This document shows positions 21,082 through 42,507 of a stretch of DNA of 64,000 bases, piece by piece; the first letter of the stretch is position 1; each line of letters starts with the position of its first letter. Where the stretch lies: contig OY282444.1 in the NCBI GenBank assembly GCA_958296125.1, positions 2,885,623 through 2,949,622 of the forward strand, read 5' to 3'. The DNA is from an uncultured Poribacteria bacterium (lineage in GTDB: Bacteria > Poribacteria > WGA-4E > PCPOR2b). Below the pieces are notes generated by a model. It was not told where the DNA came from and made no database searches. It saw nothing but the letters and a program-made list of their open reading frames with translations. Both the position numbers and the translations under genes were made by a program.

Positions 21082-22497
21082 ATGAGTAGCCATGCAGCCG
21101 CACAACACCGTCAGGATACAGCTATGAGTGCTGAAGCGTTGGACGAATTGTGCAGTTTACTGGATAACCGCCTGACTACCGCGAAGGAAGTTCGGGAGGA
21201 TCATGCGAAGGATGTTTCTCATCACCTTCCCCATCTGCCCTATGCTGTCGCATTCCCTCACACTAATACAGAAGTTTCCCAGATTGTGAAAATCTGTGCC
21301 CAGTATTCCATGCCGATTGTCCCCTTCGGTACAGGGACCGGCGTTGAAGGAGCGGTTGTCGCTATTCACGGAGGTATCTGCGTTGATTTGACTCAGATGA
21401 ACCAAATTCTTCAGGTCAATCAGAACGATATGGACGCAACAGTGCAGGCAGGAGTCACACGGAACCAGCTCAACACCTATCTTTCTGGAACCGGGACGGG
21501 GCTTTACTTCCCTGTCGATCCGGGGGCAAATGCGTCGTTGGGCGGTATGGCAGCGACACGCGCATCAGGCAATGCTGCAGTGCGTTACGGCACCATGCGG
21601 GAGAACGTACTGGGATTGACAGTAGTAACCGCCGATGGGAACATTATCCGCACCGGAGGTCGCGCCCGTAAGTCCTCCGCCGGCTATGATTTGACGCGAT
21701 TATTTGTGGGTTCGGAAGGGACGCTCGGTGTTATCACAGAGTTGATATTGAAGTTGGCGAAGATACCGGAAGCTGTTTCAGCAGCAGTATGTACGTTTTC
21801 AGATGTCGCAGCAGCCGCAAACACAGCCATTAAAGTAATTGGAGCCGGCATTCCTGTGGCTCGACTGGAGTTGCTAGACGAAATCCAGATGGGTGCAGTT
21901 AATGCCTACTCCAGCTTGGATTACAAGGTCGCTCCAACGCTCCTTTTTGAATTTCACGGTTCAAAATCAGCGGTGGCCGAGCAAGCGCAAACTGTGGGCG
22001 CAATTTTCCGGGAGCATGATGGCGAAGGTTTTCAATGGGTGTCCGGGGAAGAAGAGCGCAACAGGCTTTGGCAGGCACGGTATGATAGCTATTATGCTTC
22101 ACTGGCACTTCGCCCCGGATCGGTTGGCTACGTCACGGATGTTTGCGTTCCCATCTCGCGTTTGGCGGATTGCATCCTGAAAGCCAAGCAGGAAATCCAA
22201 GCATCTGGTTTAATTGCACCCCTGCTTGGGCACGTAGGAGATGGCAATTTTCATGTGGTATTCCCCCTCGACCCGGACCGTCCTGAAGAGTTGAAGGAGG
22301 CACAACGGCTCAATCAACTTTTCGTTGAATACGCGCTCCAGATGGACGGCACATGCACCGGTGAACACGGCATCGGGTTGGGCAAGATCGATGCGCTCAA
22401 GCAGGAGCACGGACCGGGCGTTGGCGTGATGCACACCATCAAAAGGTCCCTAGACCCACAAAATATCATGAACCCTGGCAAAGTCATACCGCTCTAA
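21082..22497 (+). CDS. FAD-linked oxidase, GlcD / D-lactate dehydrogenase type
   Basis: 471 residues with the PCMH-type FAD domain: MPIVPFGTGTGVEGAVV, DPGANASLGGMAATRASG and FVGSEGTLGVITE. The C-terminal cap ends in GTCTGEHGIGLGK and NIMNPGKV, the FAD-oxidase C signature. This is the family of glycolate oxidase GlcD and D-lactate or D-2-hydroxyglutarate dehydrogenases. No GlcE/GlcF partners are adjacent, favouring a single-subunit D-2-hydroxyacid dehydrogenase. It lies 122 bp after the aldolase on the same strand and may oxidise a related hydroxyacid. Confidence 0.9.
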   Translation: MSSHAAAQHRQDTAMSAEALDELCSLLDNRLTTAKEVREDHAKDVSHHLPHLPYAVAFPHTNTEVSQIVKICAQYSMPIVPFGTGTGVEGAVVAIHGGICVDLTQMNQILQVNQNDMDATVQAGVTRNQLNTYLSGTGTGLYFPVDPGANASLGGMAATRASGNAAVRYGTMRENVLGLTVVTADGNIIRTGGRARKSSAGYDLTRLFVGSEGTLGVITELILKLAKIPEAVSAAVCTFSDVAAAANTAIKVIGAGIPVARLELLDEIQMGAVNAYSSLDYKVAPTLLFEFHGSKSAVAEQAQTVGAIFREHDGEGFQWVSGEEERNRLWQARYDSYYASLALRPGSVGYVTDVCVPISRLADCILKAKQEIQASGLIAPLLGHVGDGNFHVVFPLDPDRPEELKEAQRLNQLFVEYALQMDGTCTGEHGIGLGKIDALKQEHGPGVGVMHTIKRSLDPQNIMNPGKVIPL

Positions 22498-28091: not shown

Positions 28092-28115
28092 GGCACCGCA
28101 GCGTTTACCGGTGCC
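28092..28115. terminator. Hairpin between convergent pheT and TPR gene
   Basis: GGCACCG and CGGTGCC form a perfect 7-bp stem directly after pheT and overlapping the end of the opposing gene. There is no long T-run on either side, so termination is uncertain. Confidence 0.35.
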
Positions 28116-29136
28116 ACCATCTTCTCTTAGATTTAGCTTCCGGTAGGTGGGGTTGGAGGGATTTTTCGGAGCGTAAGGATTTGAGCAGGTTTGATATTTC
28201 CTTATTCCTTCTGTCGGTCTCTAAGAGCGTTTCGCATATTGCAACGGCGCGTTGTCCAACCACCGGATCGTGTGTCGCTTGATAGGCAACCCCGCAGATT
28301 GTCGCAGCGGCACCATTGTACTCTATCGGCTCGATCTCCTTCGGCGGTTCATCGGGAAGCCAATCGAGAAGTGCAAGCCCAGTCTTCCACGCCTGAGACT
28401 TCGCGGCGCAAATCAGCTGATGATACAGTAGCTCCGCCGACGAATCATCGAGCCAATATGCTTGTTCATAACAGGCAGCCGCTTCGTCATACGCTTCATT
28501 GGCAACGTGCAGTTTCGCCAACTCCGTATAAAACGCATACAATCCGCGATTGGTGATGGCATACACCTCGTGTTGCGTATTTGTCAACCACTCCCCTGCT
28601 TCCAAAAACTCGATCGCCGAATTTTTTTCATCCTCTGTAATAATAATGCCTGTGAGGAGATGCTTTGCCACCGCCGCATTCGGGTAAATTTTGGTGCGGC
28701 TCTTCATCAAAGGATACGCTTGTACCGCCTTGTCCATCTGAAGCAGCTTGAGTCCCGTTGCAATTCGGAAAAGCGAGATGATTGAATCGCTGTTTTTTCG
28801 CGCCCTCTCATCAAAAACCGACGTTTGATTATCAGCGATGTAGCGATTGAGGGACTCTAATTCCGATCGAATTGTTGGATCTGCCGGATCTATTTGGTGT
28901 GCCTTCACAAGGAACCTTTGGGCGGTAAACAGTTCATCCCACTCCCGATAGATCTGCCCAAGCGACAAATTCGTCTGCGCGAGAAGTGCCGGTGCAACGG
29001 CGACAGACGCAATGGTATCCCACGCTTGGATCGCCGTTGAAAGCTCCTTCGGGGCTGTCAACGTTTGGGCGTAATCAACAAATCGATCCAACTCCGCCCG
29101 GATTTTCGCTCTGTCAAATATGAAAATCTGGTCCAC
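28105..29136 (-). CDS. TPR-repeat protein
   Basis: 343 residues, mostly helical, with tetratricopeptide-like repeats. Clear examples are ALLAQTNLSLGQIYREWDEL near residue 55 and LHVANEAYDEAAACYEQAY near residue 215. No signal peptide or membrane helix is seen, so it is probably cytoplasmic. The C-terminal 30 residues are basic. It follows the 69-residue gene by 18 bp and may belong to the lipid-enzyme operon further upstream. Function unknown; TPR proteins usually mediate protein contacts. Confidence 0.7.
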   Translation of the reverse strand: MDQIFIFDRAKIRAELDRFVDYAQTLTAPKELSTAIQAWDTIASVAVAPALLAQTNLSLGQIYREWDELFTAQRFLVKAHQIDPADPTIRSELESLNRYIADNQTSVFDERARKNSDSIISLFRIATGLKLLQMDKAVQAYPLMKSRTKIYPNAAVAKHLLTGIIITEDEKNSAIEFLEAGEWLTNTQHEVYAITNRGLYAFYTELAKLHVANEAYDEAAACYEQAYWLDDSSAELLYHQLICAAKSQAWKTGLALLDWLPDEPPKEIEPIEYNGAAATICGVAYQATHDPVVGQRAVAICETLLETDRRNKEISNLLKSLRSEKSLQPHLPEAKSKRRWWHR

Positions 29137-29512: not shown

Positions 29513-30220
29513 TTAGGTTTTGAGCGTCCATTCACCAATTTCCCACCCCGATTCTGTTGCGACCTGTCGTAACCCTTTGCTCGGATTGATGGCGACGGGG
29601 TTGCCAACGCATTGTAGCATGGGCAGGTCTGCGCGGCTATCGCCATAGGCATAGCTTGCGGCGAGGCCGACGTTATGCTGTTCGACGAAAGTTTGGATCG
29701 CACGAACCTTTTCCGCTTCACTCAGCGGCGGAGTTGTCAATTCCCCCGTAAATTTTCCATGGGCTTCCTCAAGTTGCACGGTCAAAGCAGCATCCGCTTG
29801 GAGATAATCGGCTAGGGGTTGGATGATAAAATCGAGGGAGCCGGTCACAAGCACAATCAGATGTCCTCGATTTTGGTGTTCGCGGATACAATCTAAGGCG
29901 GCGGGGAATAACTTTGAGCGCACATAAGTCTCGAACTGCTCACCGGCAAGCTGTTTGACGCTTTCAGCCTTCAGCCCTCGATAGTTGCGATAGAAAACTT
30001 GGTTGAATCTTGTGCGACTCACTTTATCTAGGAAAAAGTAGTAGACAACTTTCAACGCGAACCAGGCAAGCCAGAAGGGACGTAGAAAGGTAGGAAGCAG
30101 GTGGGAGCGGAATCGAACGTAATAGTGGACGATGGTTGTGCTCACGATGGTGCCATCAACATCGAAGAAGGCAGCCGTTTTTTTCCGCTTGGAATGAACG
30201 TATGTAAACTCGTTTACCAA
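29513..30220 (-). CDS. HAD-IB family phosphatase
   Basis: 235 residues. HAD motif I is FFDVDGT with nucleophile Asp20, motif II VLVTGS, the motif III Lys lies in SEAEKVRAI and motif IV is YGDSRADLPML. This is the SerB/HAD-IB type often found next to, or fused with, PlsC acyltransferases. A hydrophobic segment near residues 40-70 (cap region) may contact the membrane. The TTG start at 30220 follows GGAGGGAG. It begins 21 bp after the large lipid enzyme, suggesting dephosphorylation of a lipid phosphate made by that protein. Confidence 0.85.
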   Translation of the reverse strand: MVNEFTYVHSKRKKTAAFFDVDGTIVSTTIVHYYVRFRSHLLPTFLRPFWLAWFALKVVYYFFLDKVSRTRFNQVFYRNYRGLKAESVKQLAGEQFETYVRSKLFPAALDCIREHQNRGHLIVLVTGSLDFIIQPLADYLQADAALTVQLEEAHGKFTGELTTPPLSEAEKVRAIQTFVEQHNVGLAASYAYGDSRADLPMLQCVGNPVAINPSKGLRQVATESGWEIGEWTLKT

Positions 30221-30241: not shown

Positions 30242-33200
30242 TTACGTCTCACGCTTTACGCAATCTGCTCGCAATGCTTCAATCTCGGATCTGACGGTGT
30301 CGGCAAGTTTTCTGTAAGTTTCGTGCTCCAGTCCTGAAGCGGTGTCTACCTCCCCCATCTCGTGTCCGCTAGGCGGTGTGATGGGTTTGCCGAATATCAC
30401 CTGAATACGACTCTTACGCGGTAGGTTTTTGCCTTTGGGCAGCGCGTGATAGGTGCCGTCAATATAAGCGGGAATAATTGGAGATCCAGTTTCATAAGCC
30501 AACAGACCAAGCCCGGGTTTGAAGGGTTGAAGTTCCCCGGTGACAGAGCGGGTGCCTTCAGGGTAGATTAGCAAGCATTCGTTCTGTTTCAGTACCTCCT
30601 GCGAAATTCGGAGCCCCTGCAAGAAGTTGGCATGTCGATCGAACGGCACGAATTTAAGCAATTCGCCGGAGAACCATGATTTGAAGCGGGTGCTAAACCA
30701 GTAATCTTTTGCAGCGAGAACCCTCAAGCGTTTGGATTCGTCACCCAAAACAGTCATGACCGCGAGGGTGTCGAGGTGACTTGTGTGATTGGCGGCGATG
30801 ATATACGGTTGCCCACGCGGAAGGTTTTCCAGGCCAGCGCACTTAATCGAGAAGTAATACCGATAGATAGCCCGCACGCCGAATCGGAATAGCCCTGCGA
30901 GTTTGATGGATAAATATGAACTTTCAGATTGTTCAACATGGACAGCCATTTCCGCATCGATGGGGTGGTGGGCAGACTCAGATTGAAGCGTTTTGACTGT
31001 CTTCGTCACGTCGCCAACCGTCTGGATTTTGGCAATTAACTCATCGGGAATCGAGCGTTGTAGTCTGGATTCTAGCAATAGTAGCAATTCCACTCGTGCC
31101 AGTGAATCTAGTCCGAGCTCTGTCCCCAAATGACTGTTCAAATGGATCTGATCCACCGGCAGCCGCGCCAAACGACTGAGCTCAGAAATAATAACCTCTT
31201 CAACCTCCGAAGGCGTGTCGGTTGCCATGGTTGGCTTCAAGGTGTCCTCGTTTCCATCAGCATCCAGAGTGCCCCCGGCGGGATCGGGCTGCGGAGCCAC
31301 TTGTGTTTGTCGAGAGAATTGTTCTTGCAAGAGCGCCTTAACACGCTGACGATTTACCGCTGCATCTAATGTCTTGGGCAATTCAGTATCCCAAAAGTGC
31401 ACTGTGTGAATGTGCTGATATGTTGGCAAATCTTGGGCACGTTCCTGAATGTGCTGATGGATGACTTGCTCAACCTCAGCCCGGGCCCGATTATTGTCAC
31501 GAACTGGAACGATGACCGCATGCACTGTCTCAAACAGATTATCTGTGCTTATGCCAACGACGCAAATCTCTGAGATTAAGGAATTGTGCCGGTAGAGTGC
31601 TTCGAGCTCGACCGGGTAGATATTCTTACCGGCACCGGACACAATCAAATCTTTGCTGCGTCCGGTGAGATACAGATAACCTGCCTCATCAAAGTAACCC
31701 AAATCGCCCGTATAGAGCAGCCTGTCTCGAATGACCTGTTCTGTCGCGGCTTCATTCCGATAGTAGCCTTGCATCAGGCTTGGACTACTTGCGACAATCT
31801 CACCAATGCCGTCCTCGTCAGAGTTGATAATCTGGAGTTGTACTCCCTGAACCGCGGGCCCAACCGTCCCCCGCTTGCTCTTGTGGTGAGGATTTACACT
31901 CAAAACAGGAGAGGCTTCCGTCATGCCATAACCTTGATAGATTGTTAATCCAAACTCCATGAATCGATCGTACACTTCGTCCGGCAATGCGGCACCGCCG
32001 CTGACCAGAACGCGGATATGCCCTCCCAATGCAGTCCGAATCTCTTCAGCAACCTCCGGATCAAGTGGAGCTTCCATTGCCTCGGGAGACTGTACGACAT
32101 AGTGCTTAATTGTGTCGTAGAGCAGCTGGAACAGGCGCGGCACCCCAATGAGAACGGTGGTCTTGGTCTCCCGCATGAGTGCTAAAAGCGTGGTCGGTCT
32201 CAAACTATTAGTGTATGTAATGGTTGTACCGGCGTAAATCGACATCAAGAAATTGCAGGAGAACCCCAGAGCGTGATACAACGGCAGGACTGAAAGGAAT
32301 CGGTCTGTTTCTTCGGGAGGTAGGGCCTGTGAAACAGCCACAACGTTTGCAATAAAGCCCCTGTGCGAAAGCATTGCTCCCCGTGCATCTACGGTTGTGC
32401 CCATCGTGAAGATGATCGACGCAACTGTATCTGGATGAATGTCCACATCAGGGAAATTATCAGGAACCGTGGGAAGTTCCGCCTCCGTGGGAACAGCGGT
32501 CTCGGTCTGTCCACATTCAAAAGGTTGACAGAAACGGTTGATATTCAAGAACTTCAGTGAGGCGGATTCCGCATTGGGTTTTATCTGGATGTTGTGTAAA
32601 CGAGCGACACAGGTTTCAGAAGTCAAAATTGCCTTTGCTTCAGTGTACTCCGCAAGCGCGAAGATTTCTTCTTCAGCGGTCTGAGGGTCAATTGGAACTA
32701 CAATGATGCCAATCTGCACGGCAGCTAAATAAGCGATACCCCACTCCGGCTGATTCTCAGCAAAAAGGATTACTCGATCCCCTTTGCGATAACCGCGCTC
32801 CCACAGCGCAAAAGCAACCTGCCGCGAAACCTCATAGAGTTCGCGATAAGAATAGCGTACCCACTCGCCACCCCGTTTCATCTGCAACGCGATTTTATCC
32901 GGGATGGATTCTGCCTGTTGAGTAACCAAATCTATCATTGTCCGCGAATCACGCGAATCCATTCGCGGAGATTTGTAAAGATTCGTGGATGTTTTCCCGT
33001 TTTCTCGTTTTCCCGTTTTCTCGTTTTCTCCCTTCCAATGTTCGTCCGTCCTTGGTGTTTTGGAAGAATCCGCCGGTAATTCGTCGATCTGATCGGGGGT
33101 CGGTTCGCTGATTCTCTGACTTCCCGATTCGTCGCCTAGTTTGAGAAAGTGTCGTTTGATTCCCGGTATGTGTATTTCCTGGAGATAATGCCACCAATCA

Positions 33201-34729
33201 ATACGTGAAATGTCGAAGTTGAAGTGTTGTTGATCTGAAGGTGAAAGGGAGTGGTAGAGTTGTTCTGTTTTGCCGATTTCAAACTCAAAACTGAGGCGGA
33301 CATAGGGACCGTAAATCTGCACATAATGTAGCAGGGTTTCAATGGCGTTCTTTTTCACCCCGATTCGACGGTCTTTCCGTTTTGCCCATCTCAATGGAAT
33401 GCGACTGAGCCAACGACTAACTGTGTCGAGCAGGCGCAGCTTGTGACGCAGATCGCCCTGAAATTTTTCTTCATCTGGAAACTTCCATACAGGAACAGGT
33501 ATCGGCTTACCGTTATCCAACAGTGGCTGTCGCACAAAGTAGTCGTGAGTTATATTGACGATATCGCCAAAAGTCAGGGGATTGAGCGCGCCGCTCGCAA
33601 CGTGGTAAACCTCGATGCCCCGATTGTGATAGGTTCGCACAGTCGCCGCCAAAATAGCATTGACAACGAAATCAACAGGAATAATATCAAGGATACTATC
33701 CGGATCGCCGGGAAAGTCCGGTAAACGCCCCTTTCCAAAGCCGACAATAAGTGGATCCGCCATGCGAAGCGTCCCACCGAGCCACCCCGGCTCTGGGTCC
33801 TCAAGACTACTTTCCATAATCGATTGGCGAATAATTGCTGTCGGCAGATTGCCCCGCATCTTGGCAATCATCTGTTCGCCGAGGGCTTTCATATAGGTAT
33901 AGGTATCGTTCCAACCCCGCGCATGGGCATGTCTTAAACCTTCATCAATTAAACGCTGCTCAACCCACTTCTCCCTGGCAATATTAATCTGCCGTTTCAG
34001 TTTTTCTCCTGTTTCAACACCTAAATTTCGTAAGGTTTCACGCCGGAACTGATCCAGTTTCTCAGGTTGATCCGCTTCATTCCTGACCTGTTCACTCAGC
34101 CGCTGGATATCTTCGATTTCGGCATCGAGGGTTCCAGGGATTGATTCTCCCTTTTCCGCTTGATACTGTTCGGCATAAGTTTCGTAAGGTGGGTGTAATT
34201 CTTCGGGAACCTTTCCCGGTTGAATCCCACGGACATAAGCTGTCGATACGTGCAGAAAAACTGCATCGTTACAGCTTTTTGCCAGTTCAACTGCGTACTT
34301 TGCCCCGAGTACATTGCTCTGCAAGGACGCATCGATGGGTGGGTCGAATTTGACGAGACCGCCACTGTTAATGAAGACTTGCACTTCGCGATGCAACGTT
34401 TCATAAGCAGGATCGGAGAGACCGAGCCGCTCGTAAGCCAAATCACCTTCTACTGCGTGGACCTTTTCACGAATCCACTCGTCAAACCGCTCCCCATGAA
34501 TCTGTTTAAGTTTTGCAAAGGCACTCGACGCAAATACCTCATTTTCTAGCCGATCCGTTGCAGTACGCGTTTTTTCATTGGCTTCAGTCTGACTGCGGAT
34601 GAGCAGGTAGATCCGTTTTACATCGGGAATCGCAGTGAGAATTTTTGCTACAAGTGCTTGACCCAGAAATCCAGTCGCACCGGCAATCAATATCACTTTA
34701 CCATAAAAAAATTCAGGAATTGTCTGCAT
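30242..34729 (-). CDS. Four-domain lipid enzyme: fatty acyl reductase, acyl-CoA ligase, ACP, PlsC acyltransferase
   Basis: 1495 residues. Residues 8-400 are a fatty-acyl-reductase-type SDR (GATGFLG at 17-23, YTYMK at 277-281), followed by a FAR C-domain at 455-530. Residues 535-600 are a low-complexity linker. Residues 600-1135 form an ANL acyl-CoA/ACP ligase (YQGYGMTEASP, LYTGDLGYFDEAGYLYLTGR). Residues 1172-1248 are an acyl carrier domain with Ser1209 in GLDSL, the phosphopantetheine site. Residues 1285-1490 are a PlsC domain (NHTSHLD, YPEGTRS). The domain set recalls the Myxococcus ether-lipid protein ElbD, from memory. A role in making fatty alcohol or ether-linked phospholipids is inferred. 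Confidence 0.88.
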   Translation of the reverse strand: MQTIPEFFYGKVILIAGATGFLGQALVAKILTAIPDVKRIYLLIRSQTEANEKTRTATDRLENEVFASSAFAKLKQIHGERFDEWIREKVHAVEGDLAYERLGLSDPAYETLHREVQVFINSGGLVKFDPPIDASLQSNVLGAKYAVELAKSCNDAVFLHVSTAYVRGIQPGKVPEELHPPYETYAEQYQAEKGESIPGTLDAEIEDIQRLSEQVRNEADQPEKLDQFRRETLRNLGVETGEKLKRQINIAREKWVEQRLIDEGLRHAHARGWNDTYTYMKALGEQMIAKMRGNLPTAIIRQSIMESSLEDPEPGWLGGTLRMADPLIVGFGKGRLPDFPGDPDSILDIIPVDFVVNAILAATVRTYHNRGIEVYHVASGALNPLTFGDIVNITHDYFVRQPLLDNGKPIPVPVWKFPDEEKFQGDLRHKLRLLDTVSRWLSRIPLRWAKRKDRRIGVKKNAIETLLHYVQIYGPYVRLSFEFEIGKTEQLYHSLSPSDQQHFNFDISRIDWWHYLQEIHIPGIKRHFLKLGDESGSQRISEPTPDQIDELPADSSKTPRTDEHWKGENEKTGKRENGKTSTNLYKSPRMDSRDSRTMIDLVTQQAESIPDKIALQMKRGGEWVRYSYRELYEVSRQVAFALWERGYRKGDRVILFAENQPEWGIAYLAAVQIGIIVVPIDPQTAEEEIFALAEYTEAKAILTSETCVARLHNIQIKPNAESASLKFLNINRFCQPFECGQTETAVPTEAELPTVPDNFPDVDIHPDTVASIIFTMGTTVDARGAMLSHRGFIANVVAVSQALPPEETDRFLSVLPLYHALGFSCNFLMSIYAGTTITYTNSLRPTTLLALMRETKTTVLIGVPRLFQLLYDTIKHYVVQSPEAMEAPLDPEVAEEIRTALGGHIRVLVSGGAALPDEVYDRFMEFGLTIYQGYGMTEASPVLSVNPHHKSKRGTVGPAVQGVQLQIINSDEDGIGEIVASSPSLMQGYYRNEAATEQVIRDRLLYTGDLGYFDEAGYLYLTGRSKDLIVSGAGKNIYPVELEALYRHNSLISEICVVGISTDNLFETVHAVIVPVRDNNRARAEVEQVIHQHIQERAQDLPTYQHIHTVHFWDTELPKTLDAAVNRQRVKALLQEQFSRQTQVAPQPDPAGGTLDADGNEDTLKPTMATDTPSEVEEVIISELSRLARLPVDQIHLNSHLGTELGLDSLARVELLLLLESRLQRSIPDELIAKIQTVGDVTKTVKTLQSESAHHPIDAEMAVHVEQSESSYLSIKLAGLFRFGVRAIYRYYFSIKCAGLENLPRGQPYIIAANHTSHLDTLAVMTVLGDESKRLRVLAAKDYWFSTRFKSWFSGELLKFVPFDRHANFLQGLRISQEVLKQNECLLIYPEGTRSVTGELQPFKPGLGLLAYETGSPIIPAYIDGTYHALPKGKNLPRKSRIQVIFGKPITPPSGHEMGEVDTASGLEHETYRKLADTVRSEIEALRADCVKRET
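32941..33040 (-). repeat. Intergenic-type repeat DNA encoding the linker of the lipid enzyme
   Basis: A perfect 9-bp inverted repeat TCCGCGAAT / ATTCGCGGA lies at 32941-32969. Directly after it, 32994-33033 is a tandem array of alternating GTTTTCCC and GTTTTCTC units. Both are typical of non-coding repeat DNA, yet they are read in frame as a Lys/Glu/Gly/Asn-rich linker (about residues 564-597). Confidence 0.7.
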
Positions 34730-34833: not shown

Positions 34834-35092
34834 TCGGACAAAAGTTATCACGATTTTAGTTGCGTACCGAACGACGGGATTCGGCACCACGAGCGGGATA
34901 GCATACTTATACGGTTTTGAAGCAGGACAGGGAATAAGCCAGTGAGTCATTTCACCGATGAAGGTCATTTAGTATAAGCGATTAAACAGCTTTCTGTCAA
35001 TAACAAAAAAGGTGATGCGTGGAACGTGATATAAAAAGGTTGACCCTGTTAAGGCTTAATCCCTCTGCTCACCTGTATATTTCTATAACCAA

Positions 35093-35893
35093 TCAGAAAC
35101 TGACATATCCGCCACAAACAGGAATACACTGCCCCGTCACATAATCCGAGAGATTTGTGACGAGAAACTCAACGACCTTTGCACAATCCTCCGGCATCCC
35201 CATACGGCGTAGGGGGATTTGTGGCAACAGTTGTGCGCGTGTTTCGGAGCTATTTCTGCCGCCGGCGATGCCACGGGATGAAAGGATGTAGCCCGGCGCG
35301 ATGCAGTTCACATTAATCCCGTGTGGTCCCAATTCGGCGGCGAGGGTGCGGGTGTATTGTACGACCCCCGCTTTTGCAACTCTATACGGCATGCCTCCCC
35401 CACTCCAGCCGCTCCACAAACCCGCCTGCGAACTGACATTGACAATTCGACCGTAACTTGCTTTCTTCATTGGGGGGCTCACCGCCTGACAGCAGAAAAC
35501 CGCACTGCTGAGATTAATCGCCATAATATAGTTGTAATATTCCTCTTCAGCGTCGGAGGCCATTGAGGATTTCGGTTGGCCCAACGCCCCACCGGTGTTG
35601 TTGACGAGGATATCGATTCGCCCCAGTTTGTCCATAATCTCGTCAACCATCGCAAAGACAGCATCGCGTTGCGTGACATCAACTTCAAAGCCGAGTGACT
35701 GACACCCAAAATTCTCGACCTCCGCCATGACGGTTTCCGCTGTTAGTTCTTCATTATACTCTTTCGCTGCGTCAAGAGCGATGTCGTTAATGACAACATC
35801 CGCGCCCAACTGAGCGAGGTGGAGCGCGTAAGCTCTACCTAATCCGCGCGCCGCGCCGGTAACAAGTGCAACCTGTCCATCTAATTTACCCAT
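35093..35893 (-). CDS. SDR-family oxidoreductase (FabG-like)
   Basis: 266 residues with VTGAARGLGRAYA (TGxxxGxG cofactor loop), NNTGG, the catalytic Ser in VNVSSQAGLW and YRVAK (YxxxK). The normal NNAG is NNTGG. ATG at 35893 follows AGGGGG; the much longer open frame upstream overlaps another gene and is discarded. The substrate is unknown: it may be a 3-oxoacyl derivative or a sugar alcohol. A palindromic repeat shared with the region upstream of the M19 gene lies 52-81 bp before the start. Confidence 0.88.
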   Translation of the reverse strand: MGKLDGQVALVTGAARGLGRAYALHLAQLGADVVINDIALDAAKEYNEELTAETVMAEVENFGCQSLGFEVDVTQRDAVFAMVDEIMDKLGRIDILVNNTGGALGQPKSSMASDAEEEYYNYIMAINLSSAVFCCQAVSPPMKKASYGRIVNVSSQAGLWSGWSGGGMPYRVAKAGVVQYTRTLAAELGPHGINVNCIAPGYILSSRGIAGGRNSSETRAQLLPQIPLRRMGMPEDCAKVVEFLVTNLSDYVTGQCIPVCGGYVSF

Positions 35894-35944
35894 CGCAACC
35901 CCCTTTATGCGTGAAGGTGAAGTGTAGCTGTCCCACAGCTTGAT

Positions 35945-35974
35945 AGTAGTAGATATACTCCGTATGCCGTAATC
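35945..35974 (-). repeat. Dispersed palindromic motif, copy 1
   Basis: On the minus strand it reads GATTACGGCATACGGAGTAT. The GCATAC half is intact, but the second half is GTATAT instead of GTATGC. It matches 50771-50801 at about 25 of 30 positions and lies upstream of a minus-strand gene in both places. Confidence 0.5.
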
Positions 35975-36060
35975 TGTATGCAAATCTAGGTGTATAATAA
36001 TGCCGAATCCCTCAATACCCCAGCCCCAGCGAGGCGATATGTGATGTGTATAGTAATCGA

Positions 36061-38790
36061 CTACCGAACAACCGCAACCTTCCCTGACCGATGGACTATC
36101 TCGCCTTCCCGCTTCGCTTCCAAGCCGTAGATATAAACCCCGCCAGCGACAGGTCCACCCGCTTGATTTTCGCACTTCCAGGCGAAGGCTTCATCGAGTG
36201 ACGCTGACTGTTGACCAACGACATTGCGTAACATATCCGTATAGAGCAAACGCCCGGTGACATCATAAATCTTTAGTGTAACATCGGCAGATTTGGTGAG
36301 CCGGAATGTAATGGTGGCATTGTGCGATGTGGGGTTCGGATAAACGATAACCGGATCGGCAAAATCGAAAATATCCTGAGTAGAGAAATCCATCGTCTGT
36401 CGTGCTTCATTACCAGCTCGGTCTGTCGCGCGAACCGCAAGGGTATGCCTCCCCGCATCCAGATTACTCGGCAGGTAGGTCAAGCGTCCCGTCGTATCTT
36501 CGTAAAGGAATCGTACCGGCCGATTGTCCACCCACAACTGAATGGCATCAACGCCGGACCCTTCGTCGGTAATTTCATGCAGTATGAGAAAGCGTTTGGG
36601 AGGAACCGCTGTTGAATCTTCGGGAAAAACGGTGCTTATGATAGGTGGCATTCGGTCCACGAGCAGGGCATAGCTGGTGAACCGATCGACGGTGGCTTCA
36701 AACATGCCGCGCTGGTTTCTGAACCCATTCAGCGGCCTCCATTGCTGGAATTGGCCGTCCCACTGAAACATCGCAATCCCATTTCCGTTCTTATTTGGTC
36801 CTAGAGGAAGTGGAAGTGCAATCTGAAATGAAACATCTTCGGTCTCTACAGGGGATTCGATAACGTAGACGGGGTCCAGTATCGTCAACCCACGCGCCTT
36901 GGCGTTTTGTCGCTGGGCACGAATCGTATTTTGACCCAATCCGTCTTGGCTTCGCAAGGTCACTCGCAGTGCTGCGTCACCTTCAAGTAATCGAACGCTG
37001 GGGCCGCCATCAATAGAGAGGAGAATTGTCTCCAACGAAGAATCATCTCCTCGAATAAATCGTGGGAATTGAATATCTTCAAAAAGCCGATTCTGATCTG
37101 TGAAGTAGCCGCGTACAGGGAGCACCTCTCCGCTGAGAGAACGAACTCGGGTAGAAAGTGTGAATCCTGTTTGCGAGGAAGAGATCGGAAAATCAAGGGC
37201 ATATAGAAAGATTGAACCCTGATTTCCCACAGTCAAATCTGCGTTCAGTTCCTCATCCACGACGCTGAAATGATCGAGATTAGGCGTATACCCCAATCTC
37301 GCGCCAGATGGCAGAACTTCAACAACGGGAGTTGCTGCCAATCGCTTGGTCGTGGTTAACGTGATTCTGAGTGTATGATTTTCCCCTTCAATCCGTTTCG
37401 CTGAAATTGATGCTTGAAATGGTCGTGTGTCAATGGTAAAGGTAAAATTGATTGGTGCTGCCAAATTGCCTGTGGTATCCTGAACCTCCAATCTGAAGTG
37501 ATAAGTGCCGTCGATTAGTTTGGTCGGTGGGGTGTAGGTGAATTTGCCCGTCTCTGGTTGAAAATCAAAAAAACTCCCATCAAATTTAGCAGCTCCCGGC
37601 CTCCCATCAAAAACAAACGTCTCCTCACCGAAGTTGAAACGAATCGTCCGCGGATCTATCTCCATATCATCAATTAAGACCCCCGTGATTTTTACGTCCG
37701 ATCGATCAAGAAATGCGCCATCAGGCGGTAAAACTTCTGTTATCGCCGGTGGGTTGAGATCTATTCCAAGGAGCCGATCTTTCTTTTTATAGCTGATGCG
37801 TCGTAGTACCGTCGTTTTGCGGCCCAGCTGATCGATGGCGGTTACACGGATCAACTTGGGCACCTCCCCTCCGGCACCGTTAGTGAAATTTTCCTCCTTC
37901 AGTAGGAGTGTGCGCTCAAAGTGACCGTCCATCTTGAGTGGCATGACAGTCCCGTTAATTGAAAGCTGTGCATCGGGGTCATCGATCTGACCGGACACGG
38001 TGACATAAGGCACCTCAAGCAGAGCGAAATCGGGTGGGGAAGCCAGTACAATTATTGGCGGTTGGCTATCACGCACAACGGTTCGGATTACGCTCGTCTC
38101 CAAACCAATTGGGTTTGTCACTTGGATCTCGATTCGGTTTGGACCTTCACTCAGGGGCAACTGCACGACAAAACGGCCTTCTGAATCAACAGGTAAGGAC
38201 ATTTCCATCCGCCCGAATTTAAGAATAACGGTGTTTGATTTTTCTGTTCTCCCCCGCACTGTTATTTGTGTCTTTGAGGTCAACAGATCTTCAGGCAGAT
38301 CGAAGACCGCTAGGCGTGGGCGTTCGTTCTCAATAACAATATGGATTTGGTCATGTATTTCATCGCCTTGCGTCGAAATGACAACAAGCCGTATCAGGAA
38401 TTCTCCACGCAACCGTTGTGCATCCCATTGTCCGAGAAAACCGGTCTCCATCACTGGGGTTGTCGCTCTACCACCAATCTGACGCCATCTGGTCGAGACA
38501 GTGTTTCCCTTACCTGTAGAAATGGAGGTATATTCCAAACGATATTCTTTGAACATCGCGCCACGAGCCAACCCCAAGATGTCAACTTTACCACTCAGTT
38601 GTTCTCCTGTATGGGGGCGAGCGATTCTTGCTTCAATGGGCGAGGCATCGAGCGAAGTGGTAAAGCTGAATAACCAGAGCACAGATGTAAGGAAGATAAA
38701 GATAGGCAGAATTGAAGAATGGAAGGATGAAAGGGTGGAGAGAAAAGCAGGATTCGTTTGAGATTTCACAACTCTGTTCCGAGAGTCCAA
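36061..38790 (-). CDS. Large secreted protein with Ig-like repeats and FlgD/T9SS-like C-terminal domain
   Basis: About 909 residues. A hydrophobic signal segment (ILPIFIFLTSVLWLFSF) lies near residues 27-45. The exact start is uncertain: TTG 38790 and GTG 38769 are both possible and neither has a good ribosome binding site. Several beta-sandwich repeats follow, introduced by phrases such as DSQPPIIVLASPPD and PPAITEVLPPDGAFL. The last 90 residues contain VIVYPNPTSHNATITF, LKIYDVTGRLLY and GGVYIYGLEA, the pattern of FlgD-like Ig / type IX sorting domains. It is probably exported and surface-attached. Function unknown. Confidence 0.75.
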   Translation of the reverse strand: MDSRNRVVKSQTNPAFLSTLSSFHSSILPIFIFLTSVLWLFSFTTSLDASPIEARIARPHTGEQLSGKVDILGLARGAMFKEYRLEYTSISTGKGNTVSTRWRQIGGRATTPVMETGFLGQWDAQRLRGEFLIRLVVISTQGDEIHDQIHIVIENERPRLAVFDLPEDLLTSKTQITVRGRTEKSNTVILKFGRMEMSLPVDSEGRFVVQLPLSEGPNRIEIQVTNPIGLETSVIRTVVRDSQPPIIVLASPPDFALLEVPYVTVSGQIDDPDAQLSINGTVMPLKMDGHFERTLLLKEENFTNGAGGEVPKLIRVTAIDQLGRKTTVLRRISYKKKDRLLGIDLNPPAITEVLPPDGAFLDRSDVKITGVLIDDMEIDPRTIRFNFGEETFVFDGRPGAAKFDGSFFDFQPETGKFTYTPPTKLIDGTYHFRLEVQDTTGNLAAPINFTFTIDTRPFQASISAKRIEGENHTLRITLTTTKRLAATPVVEVLPSGARLGYTPNLDHFSVVDEELNADLTVGNQGSIFLYALDFPISSSQTGFTLSTRVRSLSGEVLPVRGYFTDQNRLFEDIQFPRFIRGDDSSLETILLSIDGGPSVRLLEGDAALRVTLRSQDGLGQNTIRAQRQNAKARGLTILDPVYVIESPVETEDVSFQIALPLPLGPNKNGNGIAMFQWDGQFQQWRPLNGFRNQRGMFEATVDRFTSYALLVDRMPPIISTVFPEDSTAVPPKRFLILHEITDEGSGVDAIQLWVDNRPVRFLYEDTTGRLTYLPSNLDAGRHTLAVRATDRAGNEARQTMDFSTQDIFDFADPVIVYPNPTSHNATITFRLTKSADVTLKIYDVTGRLLYTDMLRNVVGQQSASLDEAFAWKCENQAGGPVAGGVYIYGLEAKREGEIVHRSGKVAVVR

Positions 38791-39758: not shown

Positions 39759-40634
39759 TCATCTGCTCGTTTTCCCATCGCTATCTTCGCGGTAATCATA
39801 GGGGCGATTCCGAAAAATATAGTCAATCGGCTCGTCGGTAAATTCAACATTTGGATCCATCTGGCTGTTTTCAAAAGCCTCCTCACAACCCTTGTTGAAC
39901 GGTACCCGTCTCCTGCGTCGGAACCAGTGGATATTGTGAACCATTGCAATCATCTGTCTTGGTCGATCGGAATAGTTGGGCATACCCCGGTGCCAAAGGC
40001 GCATATCCCTGATGAGGGCACTTCCCTTTTTCGTATTGCCACGCACCGGCGGCGCAATCTCTCGACGTGCTTCCACAATCCGCTCCTTGACCTTAATTGT
40101 TGCGTCAGCCAGAGCAACATTCGTATCTAGGTGGGATCCAGGCCAAAGCTCAATACTACCATTATGCTCGGTGACATCCATCGGTGCGATGTTGACCACC
40201 AAAGATACCGCTGGATGTGCCATTTTCAACCCTGACCATAATTGTCCAAGATCCACATGCACCGGCTGTGTGCCACTGCCGGGACAGTTTGTGTTGCCGG
40301 TGTAGCAGCTGTTAAATAACCCTTCACCAAGAACTTTTCGGGTCACCTGTATCACCCACGGATTGGCGACAATATCACGAAAAACATAAGACGCAAAGGG
40401 CGGTGGGTCTTGCTGGAGGTGTTGCCTGACGAAATTCACCGGGAGGACTGATGCCGTCATCAATGTGTGTAAATCGTCATCCATCTTTTCGCGGAGCAGA
40501 TCCAAGTGGCTGTGCGATATGATATCTGATAAGATAACATACCCCTCCTCCCGGATTGCGTGGACAGCTTGATCGAGATGGGTTTCGGACATCTTACCGT
40601 TGGCGAGTTCTTCGGGACTAATCGTGATCTCCAT
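39759..40634 (-). CDS. Phytanoyl-CoA dioxygenase (PhyH) family protein
   Basis: 291 residues of the Fe(II)/2-oxoglutarate-dependent PhyH family. The metal-binding HxD is in PVHVDLGQLW and the distal His in MRLWHRGMPNYSDRPRQM, whose Arg binds 2-oxoglutarate. Such enzymes hydroxylate diverse small molecules; the substrate is unknown. The ATG follows GAGGAAG. It has its own promoter at 40669-40697 and no clear operon partner. It is one of four PhyH proteins in the window. Confidence 0.88.
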   Translation of the reverse strand: MEITISPEELANGKMSETHLDQAVHAIREEGYVILSDIISHSHLDLLREKMDDDLHTLMTASVLPVNFVRQHLQQDPPPFASYVFRDIVANPWVIQVTRKVLGEGLFNSCYTGNTNCPGSGTQPVHVDLGQLWSGLKMAHPAVSLVVNIAPMDVTEHNGSIELWPGSHLDTNVALADATIKVKERIVEARREIAPPVRGNTKKGSALIRDMRLWHRGMPNYSDRPRQMIAMVHNIHWFRRRRRVPFNKGCEEAFENSQMDPNVEFTDEPIDYIFRNRPYDYREDSDGKTSR

Positions 40635-40668
40635 CGCTTCTTCCTCATGAGCTAATTATTTTGACAAA

Positions 40669-40697
40669 ATAGTATCAGACGCATACCAAACGGTCAA
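40669..40697 (-). promoter_or_regulatory. Promoter of PhyH gene 1
   Basis: On the minus strand TTGACC and TACTAT are 17 bp apart, 35 bp before the start codon. Confidence 0.6.
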
Positions 40698-40793
40698 GCG
40701 AAATATTTAGCCTAGCATTTGGGACTTTCAATCGGTAAGCAGATATGGGAATTTAGGCATGTGCCTTATCCATTCAATCTATGCTGTAATTTT

Positions 40794-40822
40794 TTGACAC
40801 GACTCCGAATGAATGCTATAAT
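40794..40822 (+). promoter_or_regulatory. Promoter of the DNA methyltransferase gene
   Basis: TTGACA and TATAAT, both perfect, are 17 bp apart, 56 bp before the ATG. Confidence 0.75.
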
Positions 40823-40878
40823 TTCATTATCGGATTTGCGTAAGATAAGTCAGCTAGGACCGCCAAAGGGATTTCACT

Positions 40879-42507
40879 ATGCCTACCCTCGATTTCAAAG
40901 GGAAACAACATATCTACGCCCACCATCTCACCGTTCCTTACCGTCCACTGAAACCGGACGAAAGCCGCTCCTGCAATCCCCCCGCCTGCGGGGGTCAAGA
41001 GGGGGGTGCCGACGATAACCTCATTATCCACGGCGATAACCTACACGCCCTCAAAGCATTACTGCCCCGCTACGCGAACCGTATCAAGTGCATCTACATT
41101 GACCCGCCCTACAACACCGGCAACGAGGAATGGTGCTATAATGACAACGTGAACAGTCCGCTTATGCAGCAATGGCTCACAAAGAACAGTCCTGTTGATA
41201 ATGAAGACCTTGAACGGCATGACAAATGGCTCTGTATGATGTGGCCACGGTTGCACCTACTCAAAGAACTGCTTGCCGACGATGGCATCATTTTTATCTC
41301 CATTGATGATAATGAACAACACCACCTGCGGATGCTGATGGATGAGATTTTTGGAGAAAGAAACTTTGTTGCTAATATCGTCTGGCACCACAGAAAATCC
41401 AGTCAGAATGATATAGATGTTTCACTTTCACATAACCACATACTTTGCTATGTGCTTGATAGCCCCTCCTTTTCCTTCAATGCTGGATATATTGATGAAA
41501 GCAAATTCTCCAACCCCGACAGTGATCCTCGTGGTCCATGGGTGGCAGATCCAATGGATGCGCCCAATATCAGGGAAAACTTGACTTACGAAATCGTCAA
41601 TCCCAACACAGGTAAAGTTTATCTTCCTCCTGCGGGTAGGCACTGGAGGTTCTCTAAGGAAAAGTACGAAGCCGCAGTGAAAGAAAAACGAATTCTGTTT
41701 GGAAAAAGAGGAATTTCTAAGCCTCAATACAAGCGATTTCTCAGTGAAGCGCGGGAGAAGGGAGTCAGCATCTTCACGATATGGAGTGATGTAGGTACTA
41801 CTACGGCTGCTACTAGGGAGCTTATTGGTATTTTTGGGCGCGGACAGTCTTTTGCAACCCCCAAGCCAACAGATTTAATAAAAAAAATAATCAGAGTATC
41901 CACGGATGAAAACGACATTGTTCTCGATGCTTTCGCTGGTAGCGGTACCACTGCCCATGCCGTACTCGCTTTGAACAAAGAAGATGGCGGCAATCGGAAG
42001 TTTATCCTCATTGAGTGCGAAGATTACGCCGATGCCATCACCGCCGAGCGGGTCCGCCGCGTCATAAACGGTGTTGATACTGCCAAAGATGAGGCACTTC
42101 AACAAGGTCTCGGTGGTGGCTTCACTTACTACACACTCGGCGAACCGATCGATGCTGAGGGGCTGCTCACCGGAGATACCTTACCGGCTTATGAAACTTT
42201 GGCAGATTATATCGCTTATGCTGCGACCGGCAGTTCGCTTGAGGATATCGAGTGTCGGGCAGATTACTTTTTTGGCGAAACAGATGCACACCTTTTTTAT
42301 CTAATTTATGAACCAAGTCTTGAATTTTTAGAGAGCAATCGGTCGGCACTAGATGGGAAACGTGCAACGCGGATAGCCAAACGCTGCAACTCAACAGGGA
42401 AAAAGGCGTATGTCTATGCGGCGCAGAAGTTTATGAGTCAAAAAGAGCTTACCACCATGGGTATCACCTTCTGCCAACTGCCCTATACCCTCCATATGTT
42501 TGCCTGA
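40879..42507 (+). CDS. Type III-like site-specific DNA methyltransferase (Mod)
   Basis: 542 residues in beta-type motif order: DPPYNTG at 75-81 (motif IV), then DAFAGSGTTAHAV near 350-362 (motif I, SAM binding). It should methylate adenine N6 (or cytosine N4) in DNA. The N-terminus has an unusual Cys/Gly/Pro-rich insert (about residues 31-43) encoded by a perfect palindrome, just before NLIIHGDNLHALKAL. The C-terminal 120 residues are the specificity/Res-contact region. The Res partner directly downstream is broken, so this looks like an orphan methyltransferase. Confidence 0.88.
   Translation: MPTLDFKGKQHIYAHHLTVPYRPLKPDESRSCNPPACGGQEGGADDNLIIHGDNLHALKALLPRYANRIKCIYIDPPYNTGNEEWCYNDNVNSPLMQQWLTKNSPVDNEDLERHDKWLCMMWPRLHLLKELLADDGIIFISIDDNEQHHLRMLMDEIFGERNFVANIVWHHRKSSQNDIDVSLSHNHILCYVLDSPSFSFNAGYIDESKFSNPDSDPRGPWVADPMDAPNIRENLTYEIVNPNTGKVYLPPAGRHWRFSKEKYEAAVKEKRILFGKRGISKPQYKRFLSEAREKGVSIFTIWSDVGTTTAATRELIGIFGRGQSFATPKPTDLIKKIIRVSTDENDIVLDAFAGSGTTAHAVLALNKEDGGNRKFILIECEDYADAITAERVRRVINGVDTAKDEALQQGLGGGFTYYTLGEPIDAEGLLTGDTLPAYETLADYIAYAATGSSLEDIECRADYFFGETDAHLFYLIYEPSLEFLESNRSALDGKRATRIAKRCNSTGKKAYVYAAQKFMSQKELTTMGITFCQLPYTLHMFA
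40979..40994. repeat. GC-rich palindrome inside the methyltransferase gene
   Basis: CCCCCGC / GCGGGGG with a 2-base loop. A related palindrome CCCCCGC / GCAGGGGG lies inside the MITE-like element at 45775-45791. The insertion keeps the methyltransferase reading frame. Confidence 0.5.

Follow-up and report, generated by a model that had tools for sequence, protein, structure and literature searches.

A multienzyme of the ElbD type is encoded next to an ElbB-like HAD phosphatase in a marine Poribacteria bacterium, whose genome is a single contig of 5.16 Mb, and the acyl ligase domain of this multienzyme lacks residues that are required for adenylation. Judging from sequence comparisons, we consider it reasonably probable that the domain has become a conserved pseudo-ligase, which keeps its fold, probably serves in docking and no longer adenylates free fatty acids. 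According to the sections of PMC9426513 considered here, Lorenzen et al. 2014 had already observed elbD in Poribacteria, and the same sections describe elbD-type clusters of Poribacteria and Acidobacteriota from sponges in two clades. The gene itself is therefore not new and belongs to a known family. Its ligase's loss of the adenylation machinery appears to be the new point. In the literature searched, no paper was found to mention ElbD alongside both acyl-CoA synthetase and lysine.

The elbD homologue and its relation to ElbD

The following features were read in the window, i.e. the whole stretch of 64,000 nucleotides that was analysed:

30242..34729 (-): elbD homologue of 1495 aa, FAR - acyl ligase (ANL fold) - ACP - PlsC; architecture as in myxobacterial ElbD
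33653..34687 (-): fatty acyl reductase (FAR) domain, NAD_binding_4, residues 15-359; Pfam E 4e-61; GATGFLG and Y277xxxK281 intact
33140..33340 (-): C-terminal 'Sterile' domain of the FAR, residues 464-530; Pfam E 3e-12
31760..32923 (-): AMP-binding N-domain of the acyl ligase, residues 603-990; Pfam E 2e-76; ANL fold by AlphaFold, pLDDT 92
32378..32407 (-): degenerate A3 P-loop TMGTTVDARG by motif reading, residues 775-784 (canonical TSGTTGxPKG)
31370..31609 (-): AMP-binding_C, the C-terminal subdomain of the ligase, residues 1041-1120; Pfam E 8e-8
31358..31360 (-): codon 1124, position of the A10 catalytic lysine, here Ala; Lys in 0/48 of the order; entropy in the 99th percentile
31001..31195 (-): ACP (PP-binding), residues 1179-1243; phosphopantetheine Ser1209 intact; Pfam E 2e-8
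30461..30847 (-): PlsC-type acyltransferase, residues 1295-1423; H1315xxxxD1320 and PEGTR 1390-1394 intact; Pfam E 3e-25
29513..30220 (-): HAD-IB phosphatase, ElbB-like, 235 aa; TIGR01490 match above its cut-off (E 9e-44); DxD and GDSRxD motifs can be seen
28105..29136 (-): TPR-like protein downstream of the HAD gene, a possible further member; kept there in 13 loci of the order
34971..35000 (-): promoter-like TTGACA-18-TATACT, match 11/12, ~240 bp upstream of the elbD homologue; the region's count of such sites is not above chance

The preliminary description had claimed four lipid enzymes in one chain, followed 21 bp later by a HAD-IB phosphatase, and both statements were borne out. The elbD homologue is one uninterrupted ORF from its ATG with zero internal stops, and its Pfam domains run in the order NAD_binding_4, Sterile, AMP-binding, AMP-binding_C, PP-binding and Acyltransferase, with all six matches exceeding the curated cut-offs. 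The solved structure closest to its FAR domain is 7eoz, a fatty acyl-CoA reductase. The HAD gene lies downstream at a distance of exactly 21 bp. Elsewhere in the window, 36061-38790 (-) encodes a large, probably secreted protein with Ig-like domains and a FlgD_ig/Por_Secre_tail C-terminus, and in 39759-42507 a PhyH dioxygenase gene adjoins an N6/N4 DNA methylase gene.

The suggested resemblance to myxobacterial ElbD held as well. ElbD proteins of Citreicoccus and Corallococcus stood in for that of M. xanthus in our comparisons. The Poribacterial protein aligned end to end with Citreicoccus ElbD at 31% identity, and the FAR-ACS-ACP-AT order found in the HMM search is the same in both. Similarly, the HAD protein and its counterpart at the elbB position in the Citreicoccus elb operon share 37% identity. 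The gene row of Citreicoccus inhibens (epimerase, HAD, a 536-aa protein at the elbC position, ElbD, epimerase) agrees with the published elbA-elbE order (PMC9131029). The same architecture was seen in Acidobacteriota, Phycisphaerae, Myxococcota (where it is ElbD) and a Bradymonadaceae bacterium. A plasmid search returned FAR-less or partial homologues and no others.

A tree was built on the ligase-ACP-PlsC part with the A3 and A10 columns omitted; it is a quick tree without bootstrap, and its branching details are provisional. All full-length ElbDs split from the FAR-less acidobacterial homologues (SH-aLRT 98), and the Poribacterial protein fell on the full-length side. The Poribacteria (the order of the window organism plus the class-level outgroup family f7) and 15 acidobacterial ElbDs formed one clade (SH-aLRT 99), whose neighbours were Phycisphaerae that retain the A10 lysine. 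On this tree, the Lys and non-Lys states must have interchanged at least three times.

No linked ElbC (Lar_N) or ElbE (NAD epimerase/dehydratase) was found among the neighbouring genes scanned. The SDR at 35093-36175 was rejected as ElbE, for it stands at the locus in close relatives only and matches adh_short families best, not Epimerase. The best Lar_N match of the own genome is a distant gene, 32% identical to Citreicoccus ElbC; a linked Lar_N protein is present in family f7. The gene at the elbC position, labelled as of unknown function in PMC9131029, was seen to encode a Lar_N (PF09861, lactate-racemase N-domain) protein, and the domain was found in L087:6269-7861 (+) and L069:14313-15917 (+). 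The latter gene, from a split-elbD cluster of f7, is 46% identical to the elbC-position gene L088:6349-7959 (+). The elb-like clusters of f7 (L069:7880-18290 and L072:7660-19251) also contain a zinc alcohol dehydrogenase beside the Lar_N protein, and the L072 cluster adds a YegS-type lipid kinase and CstA; all of these may represent extra pathway steps.

Conservation across Poribacteria

The elbD homologue was detected in 71 of the 73 genomes of its order. The two others, G004 and G023, are 88% and 90% complete, so that their loss of the gene may be only apparent. In most genomes of the order elbD forms a single open frame, about 1420-1500 codons long, and in the genus it was fused wherever a complete copy was seen, the complete copies of sister genomes sharing the full-length frame at 82-84% identity. 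The HAD gene adjoins elbD in 17/20 loci examined in the order and in all five loci of family f7, where the reductase and ligase-ACP-PlsC are two neighbouring genes with the HAD beside them.

Several genomes of genus g8, which belongs to the order, also carry a two-gene elbD, its parts adjacent and followed by the same HAD. In three of the loci read (L059:3485-3491, L060:10112-10118 and L061:10676-10682), the split falls at an in-frame TAG; GGAGG stands just before this stop, and an ATG comes one codon after it. From its sequence, this arrangement looks like a secondary split of the fused gene, seemingly by a single stop, with reuse of the linker sequence.

An artefactual fusion, or a gene in decay, might be argued from these g8 relatives, several of them split by the TAG, and from the fast evolution of the linkers (dN/dS 0.3-0.7). 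This reading, to which we assign a negligible probability, is refuted by the conservation data: the frame is single and open in most of the order, dN/dS is low in every domain (about 0.04-0.18), and the catalytic residues outside the ligase are intact. An assembly error at the linker is ruled out by the shared frame of the sister genomes, the open frame across most of the order and the domain dN/dS. Nor were separate genes with unrelated neighbours, the other possible objection to the fusion, found in close relatives, since the gene is fused in the genus and the split copies remain adjacent with the same HAD.

Adenylation residues of the ligase domain

In class I adenylate-forming enzymes the A10 lysine is needed for adenylation, while the thioester step is little affected by its absence (PMC11255334). 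In the window protein the A10 position is occupied by Ala1124, and the P-loop departs from the canonical pattern as well. A census of 123 sequences in one alignment found the A10 lysine in 0/48 proteins of the order and in 2/5 of family f7. Among Acidobacteriota it was present in 2/15 of the related ElbDs and in 16/16 others; Myxococcota (16/16), Phycisphaerae (21/21) and the plasmid-borne FAR-less homologues (2/2) all had it. The loss is thus not absolute in the wider clade, as two acidobacterial ElbDs and two f7 proteins keep the residue. The adenylation residues found in all Myxococcota ElbDs seen are missing here, which marks the protein as a variant ElbD; their presence is not a published criterion for ElbD.

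Position 1124 holds twelve different residues in the order, with an entropy of 3.14 bits (99th percentile of the ligase columns) compared with 0 in the Lys-retaining groups. Those groups have 46 invariant ligase columns. The order keeps 36 of them at >=90%, and six are missing from most of its members, including P-loop Ser776 (lost in 45/48), A8 Arg1024 (lost in 35/48, though present in the window protein) and A10 Lys1124. The column comparison of the order with the Lys-retaining groups revealed no lysine gained elsewhere in the ligase, and a compensating lysine was rejected on this ground.

In the genome that contains the window, three other ligases retain the P-loop pattern and the A10 lysine. 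Meanwhile, nine Acidobacteriota genomes with a Lys-less ElbD also hold a FAR-less ACS-ACP-PlsC paralogue, which has the A10 lysine in 9/9 cases. This confines the loss to the FAR-fused gene and rules out misalignment as its cause. As both the A10 lysine and P-loop residues for acyl-adenylate formation are missing, the activation of a fatty acid by the protein's own ligase, which the preliminary description had put first in its reaction series, is unlikely.

The domain is nevertheless maintained. Within the genus and family, its N part has a dN/dS of 0.075-0.106 and its C part one of 0.10-0.165, near the values of the reductase, somewhat above those of PlsC (0.05-0.08) and below those of the linkers. 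Its predicted ANL fold is normal. The model fits thioester-forming structures better (TM 0.77 versus about 0.62); this conformation was set aside as uninformative because the Lys-containing Citreicoccus control behaves likewise. Throughout the census alignment, ACP Ser1209, the PlsC H/D/E/G/R residues, the TGD Asp and the Thr-Glu of YGxTE are invariant. The invariant Asp and Thr-Glu, together with the Arg1024 that the window protein retains, leave room for some nucleotide binding. Slow adenylation could persist without the A10 lysine.

These observations might also be taken to indicate a working fatty acid:ACP ligase with an altered active site, so that the enzyme would perform the full series of activation, loading, reduction and acylation. 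The apparently intact fold of the model, the invariant TGD Asp and Thr-Glu, purifying selection on the domain and the nearby Lys1119, kept in 47/48 of the order, are in its favor. We nevertheless regard a working ligase as quite unlikely, because the A10 position is unconstrained, the P-loop Ser and A8 Arg are widely lost, no lysine was gained elsewhere, and a published domain without the A10 lysine is inactive (PMC7966384). That domain belongs to CysK module 3 of cystobactamid synthesis, which does not load its own carrier; the carrier is charged in trans. By this parallel, the ACP here is probably charged from outside as well.

For the favored pseudo-ligase, the following sequence of steps may be proposed. 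An acyl group that is already activated, whether as acyl-CoA, as FAS acyl-ACP or by a separate ligase, would reach the phosphopantetheine of Ser1209 in trans. The FAR, with its intact catalytic motifs, would then reduce the thioester to an aldehyde or alcohol. By the chemistry of their families, PlsC would acylate a glycerol backbone and the HAD phosphatase would remove a phosphate from a lipid intermediate.

Possible products and comparison with known systems

In M. xanthus, loss of ElbD cuts ether lipids and loss of AGPS hardly matters, the AGPS-independent ElbD route being the main one (PMC9131029). In the window's own genome, AGPS gave no match at E<=1e-60, and no CarF/TMEM189 desaturase (PF10520) was found, with Corallococcus as the positive control (E 1.4e-60). 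The FAD oxidase at 21082-22497 of the window was considered as a nearby AGPS and rejected as GlcD/D-LDH-like. Hence any ether bond in this organism needs another route, for example the AGPS-independent ElbD route. Across 85 Poribacteria genomes AGPS was present in three, which are all three of family f4. In one of these, Poribacterium G016, it directly follows elbD and is itself followed by an overlapping SDR (L051:12368-14936 (+)). This AGPS matches the mammalian AGPS structure with E 1.7e-147, and the SDR is by sequence a candidate alkyl-DHAP reductase. The linkage speaks for an ether-lipid context in that family; it gives no direct support for one in the window organism.

By homology, the product is likely to be an alkyl ether glycerolipid. 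It would arise by the AGPS-independent route of ElbD, for which the genetic evidence comes from Myxococcus xanthus. The protein might instead make fatty alcohols, aldehydes or wax-like esters, with PlsC and HAD serving ordinary phospholipid or neutral lipid synthesis, a reading that concerns the product and is compatible with a working or a dead ligase. FAR and PlsC chemistry would be enough for it, and the genome lacks AGPS and CarF. Moreover, Pontiella has elbD homologues and ether lipids were not detected there (PMC11868695), so the gene alone does not prove the lipid. Orthology with an ElbD whose loss cuts the ether lipids of M. xanthus (PMC9131029), together with elbD followed by AGPS and SDR in G016, speaks against this alternative, and we consider it somewhat unlikely.

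Returning to the ether lipid reading, we tentatively advance a broader proposal, which we hold to be possible rather than probable: the ligase of the Poribacterial and related acidobacterial proteins may have turned non-adenylating with a new conserved role, for example docking or acyl transfer from acyl-CoA or acyl-ACP to the built-in ACP. Alkyl ether lipids would then arise from the activated acyl pool, with neither AGPS nor a built-in free-fatty-acid ligase being necessary.

The main genetic lead on how bacteria form the ether bond without AGPS is ElbD. A clade in nature with one of the four ElbD domains stripped of key catalytic residues and the rest kept separates this question into parts; the prediction from it is that ElbD can function without activating free fatty acids. 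Such a clade is also a warning that substrate prediction from ligase sequences, as applied to sponge gene clusters, may be meaningless for Lys-less ElbDs. The linked AGPS of one relative and the Lar_N identity of ElbC are further testable leads.

Fusions of related domains occur in Aas acyl-ACP synthetase / phospholipid acyltransferase (ligase plus acyltransferase) and in carboxylic acid reductases (ligase, carrier and reductase). Their domain order differs from that of ElbD, as Aas has no FAR and the reductase of carboxylic acid reductases is C-terminal. The peroxisomal FAR1/GNPAT/AGPS route resembles the present system in its FAR and acyltransferase chemistry, whereas the window genome has no AGPS.

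With the ElbD of Myxococcus xanthus and other myxobacteria (Lorenzen et al. 2014, reviewed in PMC9131029), the Poribacterial protein shares FAR-ACS-ACP-AT in one chain, end-to-end homology and a linked HAD (ElbB). In contrast, its ligase is without the A10 Lys and the P-loop Ser, the HAD gene lies downstream instead of upstream, elbC and elbE are not linked, and the genome is without AGPS and CarF. The sponge poribacterial and acidobacterial elbD gene cluster families comprise the same gene, phyla and architecture in the considered sections of PMC9426513, which treat the ligase as an adenylation domain with a predicted substrate class and make no mention of missing catalytic residues. CysK module 3 (PMC7966384) is an amino-acid NRPS module with a known shuttle (CysB), whereas no shuttle is known for the Poribacterial protein; what the two have in common is a natural adenylation domain that has no A10 lysine and sits beside a live carrier domain in a working multienzyme.
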